A program made the translations under genes and the position numbers. A DNA stretch of 64,000 nt. Source: Sandaracinaceae bacterium (GTDB taxonomy: Bacteria > Myxococcota_A > Polyangia > Polyangiales > Sandaracinaceae). The DNA lies in assembly GCA_019637095.1 (NCBI GenBank), contig JAHBWG010000007.1:1-64000 (forward strand), read 5' to 3'. The number at the start of each line of letters is the position of its first letter. Positions within the stretch are counted from its first letter, which is position 1. Below are positions 43,968 to 56,358 of this stretch, one piece after another. Under the pieces are notes generated by a model that did no database searches, was not told the origin of the DNA, and saw only the letters and a program-made list of their open reading frames with translations.

Positions 43968-43980
43968 ATCGAACGCGCCT

Positions 43981-44239
43981 TCGAGACCAGCCCGTCGCGA
44001 AGCGACGGGCGTAGGTCGAAGGGCGCACGCGGCCGACGGCGCCATCGAGACCAGCCCATCGCGCAGCGACGGGCGTAGGTCGAGGGGGCGCATGCGGCCG
44101 ACGGCGCCATCGAGACCAGCCCATCGCGCAGCGACGGGCGTAGGTCGAGGGGCCGCACGCGGCCGACGGCGCGATCGAGACCAGCCCGTCGCGCAGCGAC
44201 GGGCGTAGGTCGAGGGGGCCCCATCGCCCCGCGATGGGG
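43981..44239. repeat. Four tandem 64-65 bp units, each with a hairpin
   Basis: Units begin with TCGAGACCAGCCC at 43981, 44045, 44110 and 44175 (period 64-65 bp). Each contains a stem built from CCC(G/A)TCGC and GCGACGGG with a 3-nt loop, then GTAGGTCGAGGG and a CG-rich spacer with ACGCGGCCGACGGCG. The last unit runs into a different hairpin (44219-44239). The array lies between two convergent genes. No coding function is supported. Confidence 0.9.
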
Positions 44240-44991: not shown

Positions 44992-47304
44992 TCAGCGCCG
45001 CCACACCTCCGCCGCGCGCACCGCCACCGTGTGCCGGGCCGCCTCGAACCGCGGCGAGGCGCGCAGCGGCGCGAGCTGGCGGCAGCGGTCGAGCCAGTGG
45101 ACGTCGACGAGGACCCCCGCCGCCGCGCGCTCGAGCGCGTCGAGCGCGAGCTCCACGTCCCCGGCCACCGCCGCGCACTCCACCACGATCTGGAGCATCA
45201 GCGAGCGGAACCGCGGGTTCGGCGCCGCCGCGTCGAGCTCTTCGAGCCCCTGCCGCGCGGCGTCGGCGAGCGGCTCGCCGAGCGCGTACCGGTAGAGGGC
45301 GACCGCCGGCGCGGCGCGCCGCCCGAGCGCCTCGAGGCCGCCGAGCAGCTCGCGCGCGAACGCGTGGTCGTCGAGGAACAGGGCCCAGCGAAGCCGCGCG
45401 ACGAGGACGGGCAGCGCCGACGGATCGACCAGCCCGAGCAGGACGTCCGCGTGGCGCTCCATCGTCTCGCGGTCCCCCTCGAGCGCGGCCGAGCGCGCGA
45501 GCGCGAGGTGGCACGCGTTCAGCGTCGGATCGAGCGAGAGCGCGAGCGCGAGGCGCTCGCGGCCCTCGCGGAGCCGACCCGCCTCGAGCTGCAGCTCCGC
45601 GAGGTACTGGTGCGCCTCCGGCATCGTCGGCGCGATCGCGATGGCCTCCGCGCACGCGAGCGCCGCGGCCCGATAGTCGCCGCCCTGCACGGCGTACATC
45701 GCGCGCGCGAGGTGCGTCTCGGCGACGTCGGGCGCCTCACGGCTGGCGCGCTCGACGGCGCGGCGCGCGCGCTCGCCCCGCGCGCCTTCGTCGAGCGACT
45801 GCGCGCCGCCCCACCACGCGCGGATGCACGCGATGGCGTACGCGGCGATGGCGGGCGTGAAGCCGGGCGCGAGCGCGAGCGCGCGCTCGAGCTTGTCCAC
45901 GGTCCCGCCCGCGTTCATGAGCACGTCCGTGCGCAGGTCGCGCCTCGCCTCGAGGTAGAGCGTGAGCGCCTCGGCCGGCGCGCTGTGGCGGTGGCTCGCC
46001 GCGGTCAGCTCGAGCCGCAGCGCCTCGGCGAGCCGCCGCGCCATGGACTCCTGCAGCGCGAAGACGTCCTCGAAGCGCCCCTCGAAGCGCTCGCTCCAGA
46101 GCTGGACGCCCGAGGGCTCGACGAGCCGCGCCGCGAGCCGCACGCGATCGCCCGCGAGCTGCACGGTGCCGTCGACGACCGCGTCGACGCCGAGCGCGTC
46201 GTGCACCTCCTTGGGGTCGCGGCGCTCCGCGAAGCGCCGCGTCGCGCCGAGCGCGAGGAGCTTGAGCCCGCGGGTCCGCGACAGCACGTCGACGAGCTCC
46301 TCCGAGAGCCCGTCGCCGAGATAGTCGTGCTCGGGCGCGCCGCGGTACGCGAACGGCAGGATGGCGAGCGCCCGCGCGCCGAGCTCCATCGGCGCGTAGA
46401 GGCTGGGCGGCGTGGTCGGGGTCGCGTGACGCGGCGCGCCCGTCGCCTCGAGCGCGGCGCGCACCTGCGCCGCGCTCGCGGGTCGCTGCGCGGGCTCGCG
46501 GCCGAGCAGCTGCAAGATCAGCGTCGCGAGCGTGTCGGGCAGCGGCGCGAGCGCGCGCGGGTCGCGCGGCGGCGACGCGAGGCGCGCGACCGCGACGGCG
46601 ATCGGGGTGTCTCCGTCGAAGGGCAGCGCGCCCGTCGCCATCTCGAACAGGACGACGCCGAGCGCGTAGAGATCGCTCGCCGGCTCCGCGGGCCGCCCCG
46701 CGACCTGCTCGGGCGCCATGTAGTGGGGCGTGCCGATCAGGCCGCCGGTGTGCCCGCCGGCGGTGCTCGCCATCCGCGCGATGCCGAAGTCCGTCAGGAC
46801 CACGCGTCCGTCGCGCGCGAGGATCACGTTCGCGGGCTTGAGGTCGCGGTGCACGACGCCCGCGGCGTGCGCCGCCTCGAGCCCGGCGGCGATCGCGGCG
46901 CCGATGCGCCGCACCTCGTCGGGCGGGAGGCGCCCGCGCGCCTCGAGCACGTCGTCGAGCGCCTCACCCTCGACGAGCTCCATCGTCAGGAACGGGAGGC
47001 CGCGGTGCTCGCCGAGGTCGTGCGTGCGCGCGACGTTGGGGTGCGTGACCTTGCGCGCGACGCGCACCTCGCGCACGAACCGCTCGGCGCTGCGCGCCGA
47101 GACGCGCGTGAGCAGCTTGAGCGCCACGCGCTCGTCGAGCGTCGCGTCGTGCGCGCGATAGACGGTGCCCATCCCGCCGCGCCCGATCTGCGCCTCGATG
47201 TGGTAGCGCCCGGCGATCAGGTCGCCCGGCGCGAGGTCCGGCGCGATGCCCTCGGGCTCGAGGCCGTCGGCCGCCTGCGTCTCGTCGTCCGCGCCCTCCG
47301 CCAT
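44992..47304 (-). CDS. Ser/Thr protein kinase with FlgO/TolB-like and TPR regions
   Basis: A 770-residue protein. The kinase domain (about 30-295) has GRGGMGTVYR, VALKLL, catalytic HRDLKPANVI, LTDFGIARM and GTPHYMAPE, all intact. Next, ALAILPFAYRG, YLGDGLSEELVDVL and VDAVVDGTVQLAGDRVRLAARLV form the FlgO-like/TolB-N-like segment often seen in CadC-type and kinase-TPR proteins. The C-terminal about 320 residues are TPR-like helices. There is no membrane segment. It starts 9 nt after the SpoVR stop and is the last gene of the yeaH-spoVR operon, so it probably works with them. In Enterobacteria the same neighbourhood encodes the kinase PrkA/YeaG instead. Confidence 0.88.
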   Translation of the reverse strand: MAEGADDETQAADGLEPEGIAPDLAPGDLIAGRYHIEAQIGRGGMGTVYRAHDATLDERVALKLLTRVSARSAERFVREVRVARKVTHPNVARTHDLGEHRGLPFLTMELVEGEALDDVLEARGRLPPDEVRRIGAAIAAGLEAAHAAGVVHRDLKPANVILARDGRVVLTDFGIARMASTAGGHTGGLIGTPHYMAPEQVAGRPAEPASDLYALGVVLFEMATGALPFDGDTPIAVAVARLASPPRDPRALAPLPDTLATLILQLLGREPAQRPASAAQVRAALEATGAPRHATPTTPPSLYAPMELGARALAILPFAYRGAPEHDYLGDGLSEELVDVLSRTRGLKLLALGATRRFAERRDPKEVHDALGVDAVVDGTVQLAGDRVRLAARLVEPSGVQLWSERFEGRFEDVFALQESMARRLAEALRLELTAASHRHSAPAEALTLYLEARRDLRTDVLMNAGGTVDKLERALALAPGFTPAIAAYAIACIRAWWGGAQSLDEGARGERARRAVERASREAPDVAETHLARAMYAVQGGDYRAAALACAEAIAIAPTMPEAHQYLAELQLEAGRLREGRERLALALSLDPTLNACHLALARSAALEGDRETMERHADVLLGLVDPSALPVLVARLRWALFLDDHAFARELLGGLEALGRRAAPAVALYRYALGEPLADAARQGLEELDAAAPNPRFRSLMLQIVVECAAVAGDVELALDALERAAAGVLVDVHWLDRCRQLAPLRASPRFEAARHTVAVRAAEVWRR

Positions 47305-47313
47305 CGAGCCCCG

Positions 47314-48849
47314 CTACTTGAGCGGCCGCTGCACGTGCTCCTTGCCGTCGAAGCGCAGGAGCACGGGCTTGTTGTCGACGAGCGTGTGGATCTCGACGGG
47401 GCGCCGCCAGATGCGCGCGAGCGAGCGCAGCACCTCCTTGGCCCAGTCGAGCCGCAGGTCGACGCCCTGGTGGTCGTGCGAGAGCAACAGCTCGCCGCGG
47501 TTCTCGTGGTTCTTGTCGACGACGCGGATGAACGGCTGGCCCGCGTTGGTCAGCGAGAAGAGGAGCTTGTTCTTCACCTCGTGGAAGCGCCGGCTCTCGA
47601 TCTCGAAGCGGTCGTTGCGCTGGTTGAAGCCGAACGTGTAGAGCTTCTGCGCGGCGACGAACTCCGGCGTGAGGAACTCGTCGATGAAGGTCACGTCGTT
47701 GTAGAGCGAGCGCACCTCGAAGATCTTCTTGCGCCCGAGCCCGGTGCGGCGGTCCCAGGACTGCCGCGCCTCGAGCGTCTCGCAGTCCTCCCACTCCTTG
47801 CCGAACTGCCCGCGGTCCCAGCGCTCCTCGATGTGGCGGTAGAGCTCGACGCCGAGCTTGTACGGGTTGAGCCGGCCGTTGGCCGTCTCGAGCACCGACG
47901 CGTTGCGCTCCGCGTACTCGATGATCTCCGAGTCCTCCGAGAGCTTCTCCGTCATCAGCCGCGAGTGCCAATACGAGGCCCATCCCTCGTTCATGATCTT
48001 CGTCTGCATCTGAGGCCAGAAGTAGTAGGCCTCGCGCCGGATCACCGCGAGGATGTCGCGCTCCCAGCGCTCGAGCGGCGCGTGGTCGAGCAGGAACCCG
48101 AGCACGTCGCGGTCCGGGTGCTCGGGGATGCGGCGCGCGCGCTCGCGCTCCTCGGCGGCCTTCTCGCGCTGCTCGTCCACGAACGCCTGCGGGTTGATGT
48201 ACGACTCCATGTAGTCGCGATCGACGCGCAGCAGGGCGAGCTCGAGCGCGTCCGTCTCCTCCTCCTCGCGCTCGTCCTTGCGCTTGGTGGGCAGGAACGG
48301 CTTCTGCGGATCGATCAGGTTCTCGAGCGAGAGGCAGTGGTCGACGTACTCCTCGACGCGCTCGATCCCGACGCGGTCCGCCCAGCGGCGCACGATCGCG
48401 CCGTGGTTCGCCATCGTGTCGATCCACTTGCGGATCGGCTCGCCGGTGCGCTGCTCGACGCCCTGGTCGGTCGCGCGGAACGCGAAGTTGTTCTTGAAGA
48501 AGTCGACGTGCGCGTAGACGTGCGCCATCACGAGCTTCTGATCGACGAGGCTGTTGCCCTCGAGCAGGTAGGCGATCGCGGGGCTGTTGTTGATCACCAT
48601 CTCGTAGATCTTCGAGAGGCCGTACTCGCTGCTCTTGGCGAGCTGCTCGAACTCCATCCCGAAGCGCCAGTGCGGGTAGCGCACCGGGAAGCCCCCGTAC
48701 GCGGCGAGCTCGTTCATCTGGTCGTAGGCGACGACCTCGAAGATGGTCGGGAAGAAGTCCAAGCCGTAGCCGCGCGCGACCTCCTCGACCTGGATCTGGA
48801 TGTCGCGCAGATAGCGCGGCAGGCGTCGGGTGAGCCGGTAGGCGCTCAA
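47314..48849 (-). CDS. SpoVR-family protein (YcgB-like)
   Basis: A 511-residue protein, close to the usual SpoVR length. Family signatures are clear: [57 protein letters not shown] and [14 protein letters not shown]. SpoVR acts in spore cortex formation in Bacillus and in a PrkA-YeaH-SpoVR stress or aggregation pathway in other bacteria; the biochemical role is unknown. The start is TTG 48849: no ATG or GTG exists upstream of the conserved region, and AAGGGGA lies 8-9 nt before it inside the end of yeaH, so initiation is coupled. It begins 1 nt before the YeaH stop ends. Confidence 0.92.
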
Positions 48850-48850
48850 G

Positions 48851-49960
48851 TCACTTCCCCTTGCCCAAGAAGTCGCGGATCGAGCCGACGATCGCGTCGC
48901 GGTCGCGGATCTCGCTGGTGATCAGCCGGTCGTCGTCCTTGAGGTGCTCGCGCAGGTCCTTGATGAACTGACCGGAGCCGTACGGGCTCTCGACCTGCCC
49001 GTAGCAGAATACGTTCGAGGCGGGCAGCAGCGTCTTCTTCATCAGGTCGATGCAGACGAGCGTGTCGTCGACGCTCCAGTTGTCGCCGTCGGAGAAGTGG
49101 AACGGGTAGATGTTCCACTCCGAGGCCGGGTAGTCCGAGTCGATCATCTGCGCGGCGAGCTTGTACGCGCTCGAGATCATCGTGCCGCCCGACTCGCGCG
49201 TGCGGAAGAACGTCTCGCGGTCCACCTCGCGCGCGACCGCGTCGTGGATGATGAAGCGCGTCTCGACCCCCTTGTACTGCCGCTGGAGCCACGCATCGAG
49301 CCAGAAGGACTCGATGCGCACGATCTCCTTCTGCTCGTCGCCCATCGAGCCGGAGACGTCCATCATGTAGATGATCACCGCGTTGGCGATCGGCTCCTCC
49401 TCCGTCTTCCAGGAGCGGAAGCGCATGTCGTCGCGCGTGGGGATGACGATGGGGTTCGACGGGTCGTAGCCGCCCATCACGATCTGGCGGCGCAGCGCGG
49501 CCTTGTACGTGCGCTTGAAGTGGCGCAGCGAGCTCGGCCCGACGCGCCGGATCCCGACGTAGCGGTCCTTCTGGTCGATCACCTTGGACTTGCCGCGGTT
49601 CTCGATGTTCGGCAGCTCGAGCTCCTCGCCGAGGATCTCCGCGAGCTCGTCGAGCGTGACGTCGACCTCGAGGACGTGCTGGCCGGCGTCCTTGCCGGCC
49701 TCGCCCTGGCCGTCGCCCGGCTGCGGATCGCCGCCGACGGGATCGCCCTCGTCGCCGTCGCCCTGGCCGACGCCGCCCTTCTGCTTGTCGCCATACCGGA
49801 ACTTCGGGATGTCGATCTGCGGGATGGGGATCGAGACGACGTCCTTGCCCTGCTTGCCGATCAGCTCGCCCTGCGAGATGTACTGCCGCAGGTTCTTCCG
49901 GATGCGTCCGCGAACGATCTGCTTGAACCGGCCATGGTCCTCGTCGATGCGAAGCGACAC
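48851..49960 (-). CDS. YeaH-family (DUF444) vWA protein
   Basis: A 369-residue protein starting at GTG 49960. Family motifs are present: [50 protein letters not shown] and the vWA-like [14 protein letters not shown] with MIDAS residues. DUF444 proteins are encoded with SpoVR-type proteins and a PrkA kinase. Here SpoVR follows directly, PrkA is absent from the window, and a different Ser/Thr kinase follows. TATCCT (49967-49972) places the transcription start on the GTG, so the operon mRNA is predicted to be leaderless. A Gly/Asp-rich insertion (about 62-95) is the main departure from the family. Confidence 0.93.
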
Positions 49961-49966
49961 CCGCAG

Positions 49967-49972
49967 AGGATA
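49967..49972 (-). promoter_or_regulatory. -10 element TATCCT of the yeaH-spoVR-kinase operon
   Basis: The last T is 7 nt before GTG 49960, so transcription should start on the initiation codon. The same hexamer precedes the sigma-54 activator at 8059. Confidence 0.4.
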
Positions 49973-50042
49973 TCAGCGCGCGGGCCCGGCCGCCGCGAGC
50001 AATCGCGTCGAGCGCCGCGACGCGCGCCGCGACCACCTGCTC

Positions 50043-50048
50043 TACAAT
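50043..50048 (+). promoter_or_regulatory. -10 element TACAAT of the activator-pseudokinase operon
   Basis: TACAAT ends 8 nt before GTG 50057. No good -35 is visible at 17 bp. The element lies in a 96-bp region that also holds the divergent yeaH promoter. Confidence 0.45.
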
Positions 50049-50056
50049 CCCGTCGC

Positions 50057-51382
50057 GTGTCCACGTCCCTTCCGCACGAGCCGGAGAGCGGCACCTGGGT
50101 CGAGGCCGGCCAGGACGGCGACGCCCTGCGCGTGCGCAAGGTGCGCCTCGCCGTGCTCGACGGGCCCGCCGCGGGCCGCTCGGTCGTGCTGGCGAAGAGC
50201 CCGATCGTCATCGGGCGCAGCGACGGCGACCTCGCGCTCGGCGATCGCAAGGTCTCGGCGCTCCACGCCGAGCTCCGGCTCGAGGAGAGCGGCTACCGGC
50301 TGCGCGACCTCGGCTCCACCAACGGCACGTTCGTCATGGGGCTGCGCGTGCTCGACGCGTACCTGCACCCGGGCGCGGTGATCGGCCTGGGCGACTCGGC
50401 CGTCCGCTTCGAGCCCCTCGACGGCTCGGTCGCGCTGCCGCTCTCGGACGCGACGCAGCTCGGCGAGCTGATCGGGGCGAGCCCGCCGATGCGGCGGCTC
50501 TACCGCGAGATCGAGAAGGTGGCGCCGACGGACATGGCCGCGCTCGTGACGGGCGAGACCGGGACCGGCAAGGAGCTCGTCGCGGGCGCGCTGCACGAGC
50601 TCTCGCCGCGCGCGCGCGGGCCCTTCGTCGTGCTCGACTGCGCCTCGATCTCGCGCTCGCTCTTCGCGGCGGAGCTCTTCGGCTACGAGGCCGGCGCGTT
50701 CACCGGGGCGCTCGAGCAGCATCGCGGCGCGCTCGAGCGCGCGGACGGCGGGACGCTCTTCCTCGACGAGCTGGCCGAGATCCCGCTCGACATGCAAGCG
50801 AGCTTGCTGCGTGCGATCGAGACGCGCGGGTTCCGCCGCCTCGGCGGCGACGAGATGCGCCAGAGCGACTTCCGCGTGGTCGCGGCGACGAACCGCGACC
50901 TGCGCGAGGAGGTGAACCGGCAGACCTTCCGCGCCGATCTCTACTTCCGCGTCGCGGTCGCGGTGCTCGAGGTGCCCCCGCTGCGCGCGCGAGGCGAGGA
51001 CGTCACGCTGCTCGCCGACCACTTCCGTCGCGAGCACGGCGCCGCGCCCTTCCCCGAGGGCTTCCTCGACTGGGCGAAGGCGCACGCGTGGCCGGGGAAC
51101 GTCCGCGAGCTCGGGCACGCGGTGTCACGCGCGTGCCTGCTCGGCAGCGTGCCCGGCGCGCCGGCGACGGCGTCCGACGACGACGCGCTCGCGATCGACC
51201 TCGGCGTCCCGTTCCGCGACGCGAAGGCGCGGCTCGTCGAGGCGTTCGAGCGGCGCTACCTCGCGGCCCTGCTCGAAGCGCACGAGCACAACCTCGCCGC
51301 CGCCGCCCGCGCGGCGAAGCTCGATCGCATGTCGATCTACAAGATGCTCGACCGGCTCGGGATCGCGCGAGAGGGCACGTAG
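50057..51382 (+). CDS. FHA-domain sigma-54-dependent transcriptional activator
   Basis: A 441-residue protein from GTG 50057. FHA domain (about 28-115): VIGRSDGDLALGDRKVSALH and GSTNGTFVMG. AAA+ domain (about 130-375): Walker A GETGTGKEL, YEAGAFTGAL with the GAFTGA sigma-54 loop, Walker B GGTLFLDELAEI. A Fis-type HTH (HNLAAAARAAKLDRMSIYKM) ends the protein. It has the same layout as the activator at 8059. The next gene, a membrane pseudokinase-kinase, starts 1 nt after its stop, so a kinase-to-FHA phosphorelay onto the activator is likely. Confidence 0.92.
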   Translation: MSTSLPHEPESGTWVEAGQDGDALRVRKVRLAVLDGPAAGRSVVLAKSPIVIGRSDGDLALGDRKVSALHAELRLEESGYRLRDLGSTNGTFVMGLRVLDAYLHPGAVIGLGDSAVRFEPLDGSVALPLSDATQLGELIGASPPMRRLYREIEKVAPTDMAALVTGETGTGKELVAGALHELSPRARGPFVVLDCASISRSLFAAELFGYEAGAFTGALEQHRGALERADGGTLFLDELAEIPLDMQASLLRAIETRGFRRLGGDEMRQSDFRVVAATNRDLREEVNRQTFRADLYFRVAVAVLEVPPLRARGEDVTLLADHFRREHGAAPFPEGFLDWAKAHAWPGNVRELGHAVSRACLLGSVPGAPATASDDDALAIDLGVPFRDAKARLVEAFERRYLAALLEAHEHNLAAAARAAKLDRMSIYKMLDRLGIAREGT

Positions 51383-51383
51383 C

Positions 51384-54233
51384 GTGGAGCGCGCGCCGAG
51401 CGTGCTCGCGCCGCGCGAGGCGTTCGGGGCGCTCGCGATCGCGACGGGTGTGGCGGCGCTCCTGGTGTGGGTCGCGGGGCGCGAGCCGAGCCCGCGCGAC
51501 GCCGCCGCCGCCTCGCTCGCGCTGGCGAGCGCGCTCTCGGCGTGGCTCGCGTGGCGCGATCGACCGGGCCCGCGCGGGCGCTTCGTACGTCTGGGTGCGA
51601 TCGGCGCCCTCGCGGCGTCGAGCGCGCCGGTCGCGTGGTTCTTCGGGCCCAACGCGGGGTTCGCGGCGTTCCTCGCGATCGCGCTCGTCACCGCGGGCGT
51701 GCTGTCGGGGGGCTCGCGCGACCCGCTCGTGCGCGCCGCCGCGTGGGTCGGGTACGCGGCGCTCGCGCTCGGCGAGCTCGCGGTGTTCGGCGCCGTCCTC
51801 GCCCGCGCGCTGCCCGACCATTCCCTCACGCCGGTGCTCGTCGGGGACCACCCGGACTGGCACCACGCGATGGCGCACGCCTTCTTGCAGGCGATCCTGC
51901 TCGCGTCGCTCCTCGCCGGGCGGGCGATCGCGCGGCGCTACGCGGCGCTCCTCTTCGCGTTGGAGGGCGCGGCGCGCGCGCGCGCCGAGCGCGACGCGCT
52001 CCTCGCCGAGGCGCGCGCGGAGTACGAGCGCACGCTCGACGCGGCACGACGCGGCGTGCTCTCGGGGCGTGGGCTCGGGGGCTACCGGCTCGGCGAGCTA
52101 CGCGAGCGCGACGACACCTCCGAGGTCTACGAGGCGGAGCGGGCCGACGGCGCGCCGGTGACCGTGCGGATCGACGTCCACGCCGCCGAGACCGTCATCC
52201 GCGAAGAGCCGCGGACGCTCGAGGAGCGCGTGATCGCGCGGGGCGCGCTCCCGCTCGGCGAGCTCGTCGCGCTCGCGCGGGCGCTCGCCGCCACGCTCGA
52301 TCCGCTCCACGCGCGCGGGCTCGCGCACCTCACCGTCAGCCCCGCGTCGATCGAGTGGGACGGGGAGGCGTGGCGCCTGCGCGCGGCCGGCGCCGCGCAG
52401 CCGGACTACGCCGCGCCCGAGCAGCTCCGCGGCGCGGCCGACGCCCGCGCGGACGTGTTCGCGATGGCCGCGACGCTGGCGTTCGCCGGGTTGGGGCGCG
52501 CGCTCGTCGGCGACGCCGAGCGCGGCGAGCCCGGCCGCCTCGACGCGCCGCTCGCGTCGCTCGCCCTCGGGCTCGCGCGTGACCCCGCGGCGCGGCCACC
52601 GAGCGCGGGCGCGCTCGCCGACATGCTCGCGCGCGACGTGGCAGACACGCCGCGCGCGCCCGCGACGACGCGCGCCGCGCAGTCACCCGCCGCGGAGTCG
52701 CCCGCGACGACCCCCGCGAGGGACGCGCTCGACGACGCCTATCGCGCGAAGATGCGCGCGTTCAGCGTCGGCATCAGCGCCGTGTGCGCGGTCGGCGCGA
52801 GCCTGCTCCTCGTCGTCGCTCGCGAGCCGCTCCCGCTGCGCGTCGCGCTCGTCGCGATGGCGGGCATCGTCGCCTCGGCGTGGGCGTACGACCTCCTCAT
52901 CGTTCGGCGCGGAGGCAGCTCGTACTGGCCGTGGGTGCTCGCGGCCGCGCTCTCCGCCGGGCCCGCGTACTCGATCGGCCTGCACTCGGGCATCGCCGCG
53001 GTGGTGGCGCTCTGGCTGTTCGCGGGCGGCGTCTTCATGGACGCGCCGCGGCGGGGGGCGCGCGTCCGCGCGCTCGCCGGCGTGCTCGCGGCGCACACGG
53101 CGATCTTCGTCGCCGTCGCGAGCGGGGTCCTCCCCGACGCGGGCAACGTGCCTCTCTTCGCGCCCGGCGCGCCGCGCGCCGAGGCCGCGCTGCTGCACGC
53201 GCTGCTCATGGCGACGTACGTGCTCGCGTTCGCCGCCGGCCACGCGATCGACCGACGGCACGCGGCGCTCGCCGCGCGCGCCGACGCCGCCGCGCGCGAA
53301 GCGGCGCGGCGGGAGGTCGAGCTCGCAGCGGCGCGCGACGAGCTCGACCTCGCGCGCGCCGCCGCCTCGGGGATCTTCACTGGAGCCGCGCTCGGCGGCT
53401 ACGACGTCGGGCGGCTCCTCGGGCGCGGCGGGATGGGCGAGGTCTACGAGGCCGTCGAGCGCGCGAGCGGGCAGCGCGTCGCGCTCAAGCTCGTGCGCGG
53501 CGACCGCGTCGAGCCGTGGGCGCTCGAGCTCTTCCGCCGCGAGGCGACCGCGATGGCGCGCGTCACGAGCCCCCACGTCGCGCGCGTCCTCGCGGTCGGC
53601 GACGGCGACGGGGGCCCGCCGTACCTCGCGATGGAGCTCGTCGTCGGCCGCTCGCTCGCGGCGCTCCTGCGCGAGCGCGCGACGTTGCCCCTCGAGCGAG
53701 CGCGCAGGATGGTCGCGGAGCTCGCACGCGGGCTCGCCGACGTCCACGCGGCGGGCGTCGTCCACTGCGACCTCAAGCCGGCGAACGTGATCTTCACCGA
53801 CGACGGGCACGTGCGGCTCGTGGACTTCGGCGTCTCCCGTGCGGGGGGTGAGGGCGATGCGCCCGACGTCGTCGCGGGGACGCCCGCGTACATGGCGCCC
53901 GAGCAGTGCCGCCGCGGTGAGATCGGTCCGCGCGCCGACCTCTACGCGCTCTCGCTCGTGATCTATCGCGCCCTCGTCGGGCGCCCGGCGTACGTCGGGA
54001 CGAGCCCACACGTGATCGCCGCGCGCGCGGAGCGCGAGGGCCCGCCGGACCCGCGCCCCGCCGTCTCGGACGACCTCGCCTGTGCCCTGCGCGTCGGGCT
54101 CGCGTTCGACCCCGCGGATCGCTACGCGTCCGCGGACGAGCTGGCCGACGCGTTCGAGGCCGCGTTCGATGGCGCGCTCCCCGCGGCGGTCCGCGAGCGA
54201 GCGCGCGCGCTGGCCTCTCGCAAGTCGGGCTGA
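51384..54233 (+). CDS. Duplicated membrane protein: pseudokinase plus active Ser/Thr kinase
   Basis: A 949-residue protein from GTG 51384. The chain repeats one plan twice: membrane region (about 13-180), coiled helix, kinase-like domain (about 232-415), then a second membrane region (about 460-620), coiled helix, kinase domain (about 670-945). The second kinase is intact: GRGGMGEVYE at 680, Lys702, HCDLKPANVI with Asp796, DFG at 814, GTPAYMAPE. In the first, the glycine loop is LGELRERDDTSEVYEAE, the catalytic loop reads HLTVSPASIEW at 315 with no HRD or Asp, and no DFG is found, while YAAPEQLRGA survives. It is therefore a pseudokinase joined to a kinase, an arrangement reminiscent of JAK2-like regulation. 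The start is coupled to the activator gene upstream. Confidence 0.88.
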   Translation: MERAPSVLAPREAFGALAIATGVAALLVWVAGREPSPRDAAAASLALASALSAWLAWRDRPGPRGRFVRLGAIGALAASSAPVAWFFGPNAGFAAFLAIALVTAGVLSGGSRDPLVRAAAWVGYAALALGELAVFGAVLARALPDHSLTPVLVGDHPDWHHAMAHAFLQAILLASLLAGRAIARRYAALLFALEGAARARAERDALLAEARAEYERTLDAARRGVLSGRGLGGYRLGELRERDDTSEVYEAERADGAPVTVRIDVHAAETVIREEPRTLEERVIARGALPLGELVALARALAATLDPLHARGLAHLTVSPASIEWDGEAWRLRAAGAAQPDYAAPEQLRGAADARADVFAMAATLAFAGLGRALVGDAERGEPGRLDAPLASLALGLARDPAARPPSAGALADMLARDVADTPRAPATTRAAQSPAAESPATTPARDALDDAYRAKMRAFSVGISAVCAVGASLLLVVAREPLPLRVALVAMAGIVASAWAYDLLIVRRGGSSYWPWVLAAALSAGPAYSIGLHSGIAAVVALWLFAGGVFMDAPRRGARVRALAGVLAAHTAIFVAVASGVLPDAGNVPLFAPGAPRAEAALLHALLMATYVLAFAAGHAIDRRHAALAARADAAAREAARREVELAAARDELDLARAAASGIFTGAALGGYDVGRLLGRGGMGEVYEAVERASGQRVALKLVRGDRVEPWALELFRREATAMARVTSPHVARVLAVGDGDGGPPYLAMELVVGRSLAALLRERATLPLERARRMVAELARGLADVHAAGVVHCDLKPANVIFTDDGHVRLVDFGVSRAGGEGDAPDVVAGTPAYMAPEQCRRGEIGPRADLYALSLVIYRALVGRPAYVGTSPHVIAARAEREGPPDPRPAVSDDLACALRVGLAFDPADRYASADELADAFEAAFDGALPAAVRERARALASRKSG

Positions 54234-54473
54234 CGCCTCGCGGGCTCACCTCGCGAGGTCAGCGCACGCAGCGACGGATCAACACGTAACAATCCCATGG
54301 GCGGCAAAGGGCTCCCAGCCAGCCGGCGCCTCGACGATCGGGGAACGGGCTCGTCCATGAATCGAATCCCGCGCACGTGCTTTACGCGGCGACGTCCGCG
54401 GCGGAGGCCGCAGCCCCGCACCGCAGTGACGAGCAAGCCCAGCAAGCTCCCCGTCGACATCTCCTTGCGCTCG
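54234..54473. other. Non-coding stretch after the kinase gene
   Basis: About 240 bp with no supported gene. A palindrome ACCTCGCGAGGT lies about 20 nt after the kinase stop and may be part of its transcript end. The minus-strand open frames here are antisense-like with no family features. Confidence 0.5.
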
Positions 54474-54590
54474 GTCCGTCGTACGGTCGCCCCGGGGTCG
54501 TACCGCAGGTCACGACCCCTTCGCAGTAAGGTGCTGCCGAGGCACACAGAACTCGATGAAGGGGTGGGCCCACCGTCGATCGGGTCGTGG
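54474..54590 (-). pseudogene. Third, decayed copy of the Cys-rich lipoprotein (fragment)
   Basis: About 115 bp aligns to the 5' third of the intact gene at 55531-56358 (minus). HPFIEFCVPRQHL can be read in one frame and YCEGVVTCGTTPGRPYDGP in the next, so a one-base deletion (AAGG where the intact copy has AAAGG) breaks the frame. The rest of the gene is missing. It lies 60 bp from the stop of the first intact copy and reads as a leftover of tandem duplication. Confidence 0.65.
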
Positions 54591-54649
54591 GCCCCTTACG
54601 CCTCGCGAGCCGTCGCGCCGGGAACGCGGGCTGTCCATCGGCGCGCGCG

Positions 54650-55507
54650 TTAGATCCCGCCGACGAAGCACCACGTGTCGGGCGGGTCGAGCGGGGTGCA
54701 GCTTTGTAGCTCGCAGTACATCGTGGAGCAGGCGAAGTCTGTGAAGCACTCCGCCGCGTCGTCTTGTACCTCGCAATACCCTCTATACGGGGTCGGAACC
54801 GTGTCCCACTGACAGAAGAAGCCCGGGCCACAGTCGTGGTTGCAGCTATCTCCTTCGTCGCCCGGGTCCGTGCACCGGCCGGTGAACTCGTCGATCGTCC
54901 CGGTGAGCTCACATCGGAGGCCCGGCCGACACCGCAGACGCCCGAGGCCGTACATTCCCCGGGACTGCGGCGAGCAGTCCGCGCCGGCTTCCAGCGTGCC
55001 CTCGAGGACGCGACCGTAGTCCCACGCGCGATCGATCGCCTCGCAGCCGGGCCGCCGCGCTTCGAGCTCGGCGAGGGTCCGCGCGGCCTCGTCGGGGAGC
55101 CAGACGAGCGTCCCGTCCGTCAGGGCGGGATCCGCGGCCAGTTCCTCGCATCCCGATCGGATCGCCTCCACGTCGCACGGGCCCTCGGACATACGCCCAG
55201 GGATCGTACAGCAGGCCACGCGTCCTTCGCACCGAAGCTGCGCCCGCCTCACGCAGAACTCGATGAACGGGTGGGGTCCGCCACCGTCGATCGGGGGCGC
55301 GTCGATCGGGTTGCCGCCGTCATCGAACCGCGCCGCGTCCTCGACCGCGGCGTCGAGGCCACCGTCGCGGTCGTGGCTCGTCCCGCACGCCGTGATGCAG
55401 GCGAAGATCGTCGCGCCGAGCCCGAGCGGCGCTCGATGGCCGCCCGGTCGGCGGCGTCCAGATCGTTCGCCTGTGTACGGTGAGGCGGCCGAGCGAGCGT
55501 GCCGCAC
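54650..55507 (-). CDS. Cys-rich lipoprotein, tandem copy A
   Basis: A 285-residue protein; the best start is GTG 55507, because a shorter start would cut into the lipoprotein signal (GATIFACITACGTS). The mature protein has about 20 cysteines, in RAQLRCEGRVACCTIPGRM, RCRPGLRCELTG, CTDPGDEGDSCNHDCGPGFF and CSTMYCELQSC, and is about 70-75 percent identical by eye to copy B next door. Such Dickkopf-like spacing occurs in exported myxobacterial proteins. Function unknown. Copy B ends 23 bp upstream, so both may share one transcript. Confidence 0.75.
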   Translation of the reverse strand: MRHARSAASPYTGERSGRRRPGGHRAPLGLGATIFACITACGTSHDRDGGLDAAVEDAARFDDGGNPIDAPPIDGGGPHPFIEFCVRRAQLRCEGRVACCTIPGRMSEGPCDVEAIRSGCEELAADPALTDGTLVWLPDEAARTLAELEARRPGCEAIDRAWDYGRVLEGTLEAGADCSPQSRGMYGLGRLRCRPGLRCELTGTIDEFTGRCTDPGDEGDSCNHDCGPGFFCQWDTVPTPYRGYCEVQDDAAECFTDFACSTMYCELQSCTPLDPPDTWCFVGGI

Positions 55508-55530
55508 GCCCCCGCGACAGCGTCGCAGCG

Positions 55531-56358
55531 TCAGAAGCCGTGGACGATGCACCACGTGTCGGCCGGCTCGATCGGCGTGCAGCTTCGCAGCTCGCAGTAC
55601 ATCGTGGAGCAGCCGAAGTCGCCGAAACACTCCGCCGCCTCGTCTTGGACCTGGCAGAGTCCCCGATAGGGCGTCGAGTCCGTATGCCATTGACAAAAGA
55701 GGCCCGGGCCACAGTCGTGGTTGCAGCTATCCCCTTGGGCACCGGGCTCGGCGCAGGTGCCGGTGAAGTCGTCGCTCGTCCCGGTGAGCTCACACCGGAG
55801 GCCGGGCCGACAGCGGAGGCGCCCCAGACCGCTCATTCGCGGGGACTGCGGCGTGCACTCCGCACCGGCTTCGAGCGTGCCCTCGAGGACGCGACCGTAG
55901 TCCCACGCGCGATCGATCGCCTCGCAGCCAGGCCGCCGCGCCTCGAGCTCGGCGAGGGTTCGGGCGGCCTCGTCGGGGAGCCAGGTGAGGGTCCCGTCGG
56001 TCAGGGCGGGATCCGCGGCCAGCGTCTCGCACCCGGACCGAATCGTCCCCACGTCGCATGGGCCGTCGTACATTCGCCCGGGGATGGTACAGCAGGCCAC
56101 GACCCCTTCGCAGTAAAGGTGCTGCCGAGCCACACAGAACTCGATGAAGGGGTGGGGGGCACCACCGTCGTCAAGCCCCTGAGCGTCAGGCGCGCCTCCG
56201 CCGTCATTGAGCTGCGCCGCGTCCTCGAGCGCGGCGTCGAGGCCGCCGTCGCGGTCGTGGCTCGTCCCGCACGCGCCGAACAGCAGGCTGCCGCCGATGC
56301 CGATGAGGGCGAGCTGAGCGAACTGGGCCCGTTGACACGACGTGGTCACCCCGCACAT
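55531..56358 (-). CDS. Cys-rich lipoprotein, tandem copy B
   Basis: A 275-residue protein from ATG 56358. The signal ends at IGGSLLFGACGTSHD (lipobox FGAC, Cys28 or so), followed by an Asp/Gly-rich linker and the same Cys-rich domain as copy A (HLYCEGVVACCTIPGRMYDG, CRPGLRCELTG, GDSCNHDCGPGLFCQWH). The two copies match best in the central ARTLAELEARRPGCEAIDRA region. Its start region overlaps the divergent protease start by 17 bp, which argues that the protease really starts further in (see there). Confidence 0.75.
   Translation of the reverse strand: MCGVTTSCQRAQFAQLALIGIGGSLLFGACGTSHDRDGGLDAALEDAAQLNDGGGAPDAQGLDDGGAPHPFIEFCVARQHLYCEGVVACCTIPGRMYDGPCDVGTIRSGCETLAADPALTDGTLTWLPDEAARTLAELEARRPGCEAIDRAWDYGRVLEGTLEAGAECTPQSPRMSGLGRLRCRPGLRCELTGTSDDFTGTCAEPGAQGDSCNHDCGPGLFCQWHTDSTPYRGLCQVQDEAAECFGDFGCSTMYCELRSCTPIEPADTWCIVHGF

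Follow-up and report, generated by a model that had tools for sequence, protein, structure and literature searches.

Whether pseudokinases act as regulators or persist as leftovers is an old question, and covalently joined pseudokinase-kinase pairs are famous in the eukaryotic Janus kinases (JAK/TYK2), in which a pseudokinase (JH2) stands N-terminal to an active kinase (JH1) within one chain. The membrane Ser/Thr kinases of the PknB class, for their part, are Hanks-type enzymes tethered by a single helix that is joined to an external sensor. Among myxobacteria, pseudokinases in themselves are frequent, making up 11 of the 99 kinases of M. xanthus (PMC6791715), and PMC12599244 does not present the bacterial membrane pseudokinases MviN/ActPs3 and EssB/YukC as joined to an active kinase from their own family. 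Our literature search for tandem bacterial pseudokinase-kinase proteins returned no match, and the words tandem and fused do not occur in PMC12599244.

The window, that is, the whole stretch of 64,000 nucleotides of Sandaracinaceae DNA analysed here, encodes a two-module protein of this kind (Table 1), the limits of whose reading frame, from a GTG start codon to the stop codon, had been predicted exactly. The repeated plan of membrane region, helix and kinase put forward in the original prediction is borne out by hydropathy, which peaks at residues 13-182 and 460-619, by AlphaFold models with a long helix ahead of each kinase, and by alignment of the two halves of the protein, which are 28% identical in the membrane region, 39% in the linker and 34% in the residual kinase. 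A draft genome of 197 contigs might be suspected of presenting an intact first kinase in damaged form through a sequencing or assembly error; however, all the losses are in frame, GC3 stays at 0.90-1.00 over the entire gene, a six-frame family-profile search detected no kinase signal in the other frames of the first half, and the orthologues follow the same trend, so that a frameshift does not account for the unusual first kinase and the chance of an artefact seems close to negligible.

Table 1. Features of the two-module kinase gene and of its upstream neighbour (window coordinates).
Feature	Coordinates	Strand	Extent	Basis or remark
FHA + sigma54 AAA+ activator + Fis-type HTH (enhancer-binding protein)	50057..51382	+		directly upstream of the kinase gene; GTG start at 50057
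Two-module membrane pseudokinase-kinase	51384..54233	+	949 aa	ORF read, Pfam, GC3
First six-helix membrane module	51411..51929	+	aa 10-182	hydropathy, model, homology
Long helix (last membrane helix + linker)	51855..52049	+	aa 158-222	model
Pseudokinase domain	52077..52643	+	about aa 232-420	alignment, AlphaFold model, structure match
Inter-module linker, low confidence	52644..52760	+	aa 421-459	pLDDT <50 at aa 424-443
Second six-helix membrane module	52761..53240	+	aa 460-619	hydropathy, model
Second long helix	53175..53363	+	aa 598-660	model
Complete Ser/Thr kinase domain	53400..54173	+	aa 673-930	Pfam, catalytic residues

On the combined evidence of alignment and modelling, the pseudokinase in the first half is real, a predicted kinase fold from which the catalytic chemistry appears to have been lost. 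It had been proposed that this domain lacks the Gly loop, the catalytic Asp and DFG while keeping the APE motif, and the proposal holds residue by residue: LRERDDTSEVY stands where the orthologues have the Gly loop LGRGGMGEVY, the beta3 Lys is an Arg (VTVRI, R262), beta4-beta5 are deleted, the catalytic loop reads HLTVSPAS (residues 315-322) instead of HxDxxPxN, with Asp changed to Thr, Lys to Ser and Asn to Ser, DFG has become AAG (residues 334-336) and the activation loop is shortened by a partial deletion, whereas YAAPEQ (APEQ) and the alphaF helix are retained. A pseudokinase lacks one or more catalytic residues, and here five are replaced: the Lys of beta3, the Asp of HRD, the Lys and the Asn of the catalytic loop, and the Asp of DFG. 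Since neither Pfam nor NCBIfam profiles match the first half, the evidence for its homology comes from alignment, tree and fold. Structure prediction, which might have exposed a different fold, instead returned that of a kinase, with a mean pLDDT of 87.6 that exceeds 90 across much of the C-lobe; residues 226-420 of the model match PknB (5u94) with a Z of 20.5 (193 residues aligned, rmsd 6.7), the best-fitting part being the C-lobe, which superimposes on COT kinase (4y85) with an rmsd of 2.4 A over 141 residues, while the N-lobe is diminished and, as the high rmsd of the whole match suggests, probably displaced. Because the model was built with 54 related modules, active homologues among them, it supports a folded domain rather than proving one by itself.

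It is general knowledge that some pseudokinases have turned out to be active after all, by alternative chemistry or through migrated residues as in SelO or the WNK kinases, and the same might be imagined here; yet with both Asp residues, the beta3 Lys, the Asn and the Gly loop gone and beta4-beta5 deleted, we regard such activity as very improbable. MviN/ActPs3 and EssB/YukC share with the domain the degradation of all motifs, a short activation loop (partly deleted in ActPs3/MviN as well) and a place in a membrane protein; this is a shared character and not evidence of common descent, and the order of membrane and kinase parts differs. In the tree the domain falls among the first copies of its orthologues. 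Nor does the domain have the trait of the GLW pseudokinase family, in which GLW replaces HRD (PMC12599244): the window protein reads HLT.

The second kinase, by contrast with the first, is the sole kinase that Pfam detects in the protein (Pkinase, residues 673-874, E 4.9e-44), and it carries all the hallmarks of a Hanks-type Ser/Thr kinase, namely the Gly loop (GRGGMG), the beta3 Lys (K702), the alphaC Glu (E720), the HxDxKxxN residues (D796, K798, N801), DFG (814-816) and APE. Its predicted completeness is therefore confirmed, albeit with a catalytic loop, HCDLKPAN, in which HCD takes the place of the usual HRD. The domain resembles the PknB class in sequence, fold and membrane tether; it differs in that its tether is a polytopic six-helix module and that two copies of the unit are fused. 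Being non-RD (HCD, residues 794-796, window 53763-53771) and having an activation loop (window 53835-53900) with nearly no Ser or Thr ahead of the GTP motif, it gives a hint that it may not be switched by activation-loop phosphorylation.

A search of 318 genomes from this class found proteins with both modules in 8, window included, and seven of the eight still have a remnant, or more, of the first kinase. The orthologues are L049 and L050 (genomes G492 and G493), those of G222, in which the gene is split across two contig ends within the repeated linker (L167/L168), and those of G255 (L171), G527 (L198), G531 (L197) and G547 (L199); a further sequence, L048 (G353), breaks off close to the end of its first kinase. 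It is against this count, and against the frequency of pseudokinases as such in myxobacteria, that the claimed rarity of pseudokinase-kinase pairs in bacteria is to be read. The membrane module joined to a kinase is widespread in Myxococcota, and in an alignment of 54 rows the catalytic set is complete in every copy except the first copies of this group. All N-terminal copies form one clade (support 100/99), as do all C-terminal copies (100/100), and the two clades are joined at 100/100, values that scarcely change with added genomes (99/99, 100/99 and 100/100, respectively); the joining of the two clades indicates that one tandem duplication of the unit of six-helix membrane module, helix and kinase, in an ancestor of several families within the class, is at the origin of the group.

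Other double-module membrane kinases occur in L033 (3131-6760), L034 (3364-7119; genome G035) and L057 (5188-8829), and in all three both kinase domains look complete. We rejected them as relatives with a shared history, as the copies of L033 and L034 group together apart from the window group and those of L057 are placed elsewhere in the trees; these positions, together with the two intact kinases, indicate that the three proteins arose separately from the window group, and they are useful contrast cases for the window protein. In L062 (4911-6867) an EBP-type gene precedes a membrane module and a kinase that do not share one frame; this broken or mis-sequenced relative, whose branch in the larger tree measured 4.5, was omitted from the region-specific trees.

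Within the orthologue group the first kinase appears at graded stages of decay, from light damage to complete loss, with the second kinase intact throughout. The catalytic loop of the first copies reads HLDVGPRN in L049 and L050, HGDLTPRN in G222, HGDVNPTN in G531, HGDVAPGN in G527 and HLTVSPAS in the window, against HxD[LIV]KPxN in all C-terminal copies, so that the Lys of DLKPxN is absent from all six readable first copies and from none of the second copies; by this pattern, phosphoryl transfer by the first kinase was probably compromised already in the common ancestor. The Gly loop, beta3 Lys, alphaC Glu, Asp and DFG are nevertheless retained in five of the six readable first copies, the window being the exception, whereas in G255 the first kinase is nearly erased, only a C-lobe tail being left, and in G547 it is wholly gone, both membrane modules being retained in either case. 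An active first kinase in homologues had been named as the result that would speak against the original prediction: the orthologues do keep nearly all motifs, but because the catalytic-loop Lys is missing in all of them we take their first kinases to be weakened rather than plainly active.

The constraint acting on the dead domain likewise varies among lineages. For the pair L049/L050, dN/dS is 0.18 in the first kinase, 0.15 in the second, 0.22 and 0.28 in the membrane modules and 0.40 in the linker, which shows that a Lys-less first kinase with its ATP-site motifs intact is maintained by purifying selection in that pair. In the region-specific trees, the N- and C-terminal branches of the window protein measure 1.04 and 0.75 for the membrane module and 3.10 and 0.67 for the kinase; the first kinase of the window therefore evolves about 4.6 times faster than the second, and its long branch beside ordinary membrane branches argues that constraint has been relaxed specifically on that domain. 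Sequence comparison shows the window domain as eroded to a C-lobe-rich form devoid of ATP-binding residues, next to a first membrane module under ordinary constraint. The domain might be a mere decaying spacer, selection acting on the first membrane module alone and loss being bound to follow as in L171 and L199, a reading favoured by the fast kinase branch and by the two relatives in which little or nothing of the domain is left beside two retained membrane modules. It fits poorly with a residual C-lobe that is 28-40% identical to the orthologues, about as conserved as the first membrane module (35-42%), with a frame free of stops and frameshifts at uniform GC3, and with a confidently predicted fold, and we hold it to be possible though rather unlikely. 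Conservation of the dead domain, for which a survey of homologues had been suggested, is accordingly real in L049/L050 and fails in L171 and L199; in some lineages the first kinase is Lys-less yet maintained, in others it is lost, and in the window it may be a reduced scaffold or a vestige.

The comparison with JAK can now be made more precise. In both, a pseudokinase precedes a kinase in one chain, and the first domains of L049, L050, G222, G527 and G531 retain ATP-site motifs as well; the window family differs in its Ser/Thr-type catalytic loop (HCDLKPAN in the second kinase as opposed to the JAK-type HRDLAxRN), in its two separate membrane modules and in a first domain that is dispensable in relatives, and Pfam matched no FERM or SH2-like domain in the window protein. 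Any regulation in cis in the window family is putative. Were the first domain an allosteric regulator in direct contact with the second kinase, keeping it either inactive or active, the shared domain order and the purifying selection on the Lys-less domain of L049/L050 would be readily understood. However, bacterial kinases form back-to-back dimers through the N-lobe, from which the window domain has lost strands, each kinase is anchored by a membrane module and a long helix of its own, and the full-length model yields no confident kinase-kinase interface (pTM 0.49), which, with the dispensability of the domain in relatives, makes direct regulation improbable. The idea of a conserved JAK-like regulator is unsupported as originally stated, given the near-erased domain of L171, its absence from L199 and its accelerated evolution in the window; such a step may have existed in the ancestor and may exist in the better-preserved lineages, and is less likely in the window protein, which lacks much of the N-lobe.

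A likely partner lies one nucleotide upstream of the kinase gene, where the encoded protein has the make-up of an FHA-type sigma54 enhancer-binding protein (EBP; Pfam FHA, 6e-15, and Sigma54_activat, 3.9e-63), with a GAFTGA loop and an HTH read in the sequence, the HTH_8 profile itself being matched in the orthologues only. These orthologues are 50-58% identical to the window gene, and the EBP gene adjoins the two-module kinase gene in seven of the eight genomes (window, L049, L050, G255, G527, G531 and, divergently, G222), the exception being G547, which has lost the first kinase and whose contig carries no EBP. FHA domains bind phospho-threonine. In its domain set the gene resembles the Myxococcus FHA-sigma54 activators, a type known from M. 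xanthus development (Jelsbak et al. 2005, cited in PMC12288465); it differs from them in adjoining a two-module kinase gene. Taken together with the adjacency, these properties make a kinase-to-activator pathway likely, as inferred from gene order, although the at least 153 kinase matches of the Pkinase family search in this genome mean that the true substrate could lie elsewhere. No sigma54 -24/-12 element was found at 49930-50100, before the EBP gene and the divergent DUF444 gene, and window-wide matches at up to two mismatches (12 against 10.3 expected) are at about chance level.

Divergent from the EBP gene, all on the minus strand, are genes for DUF444/YeaH (48851-49960), SpoVR (47314-48849) and a TPR-containing Ser/Thr kinase (44992-47304); PrkA kinase is usually linked to SpoVR/YeaH, and none was seen at this locus. 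Elsewhere in the window, tandem paralogous minus-strand genes at 54468-56274 encode lipoprotein-like proteins rich in Cys (82% identity over 300 nt, at a spacing of 881, with a third partial copy near 54468), and a 65-base GC-rich unit forms a 3.8-copy array at 43975-44219 (93% matches).

Our preferred reading, to which we give about an even chance, is that of a single-chain membrane sensor kinase built from a duplicated unit, in which the dead first kinase is a structural element and the second kinase signals to the EBP. The first half would be retained mainly as a second sensory or dimerisation membrane module, in cis beside the active half, which is the most economical role given that all lineages keep this module; the dead kinase, with its APE and alphaF side retained, would serve as a structural or docking element, the second kinase would do the catalysis, and the signal would go on to the neighbouring activator, which would recognise phospho-threonine through its FHA domain and regulate promoters of the sigma54 type. 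More tentatively, and somewhat doubtfully, there may have been a bacterial counterpart to the JAK arrangement, an ancestor with an ATP-binding, Lys-less pseudokinase in cis with an active kinase from its own family, gating an FHA-sigma54 activator, of which graded losses survive, the window protein keeping a C-lobe scaffold and having shifted signalling to the duplicated membrane module.

In a limited literature search we found no description of a bacterial pseudokinase decay series like this one. A single orthologue group here provides a natural series, from a Lys-less but otherwise complete domain through one reduced to its C-lobe to one that has been erased, across which the active partner and the membrane modules persist, in most cases together with the gene of the transcriptional partner. 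Such natural variants allow the contribution of a pseudokinase to its partner in cis to be tested.
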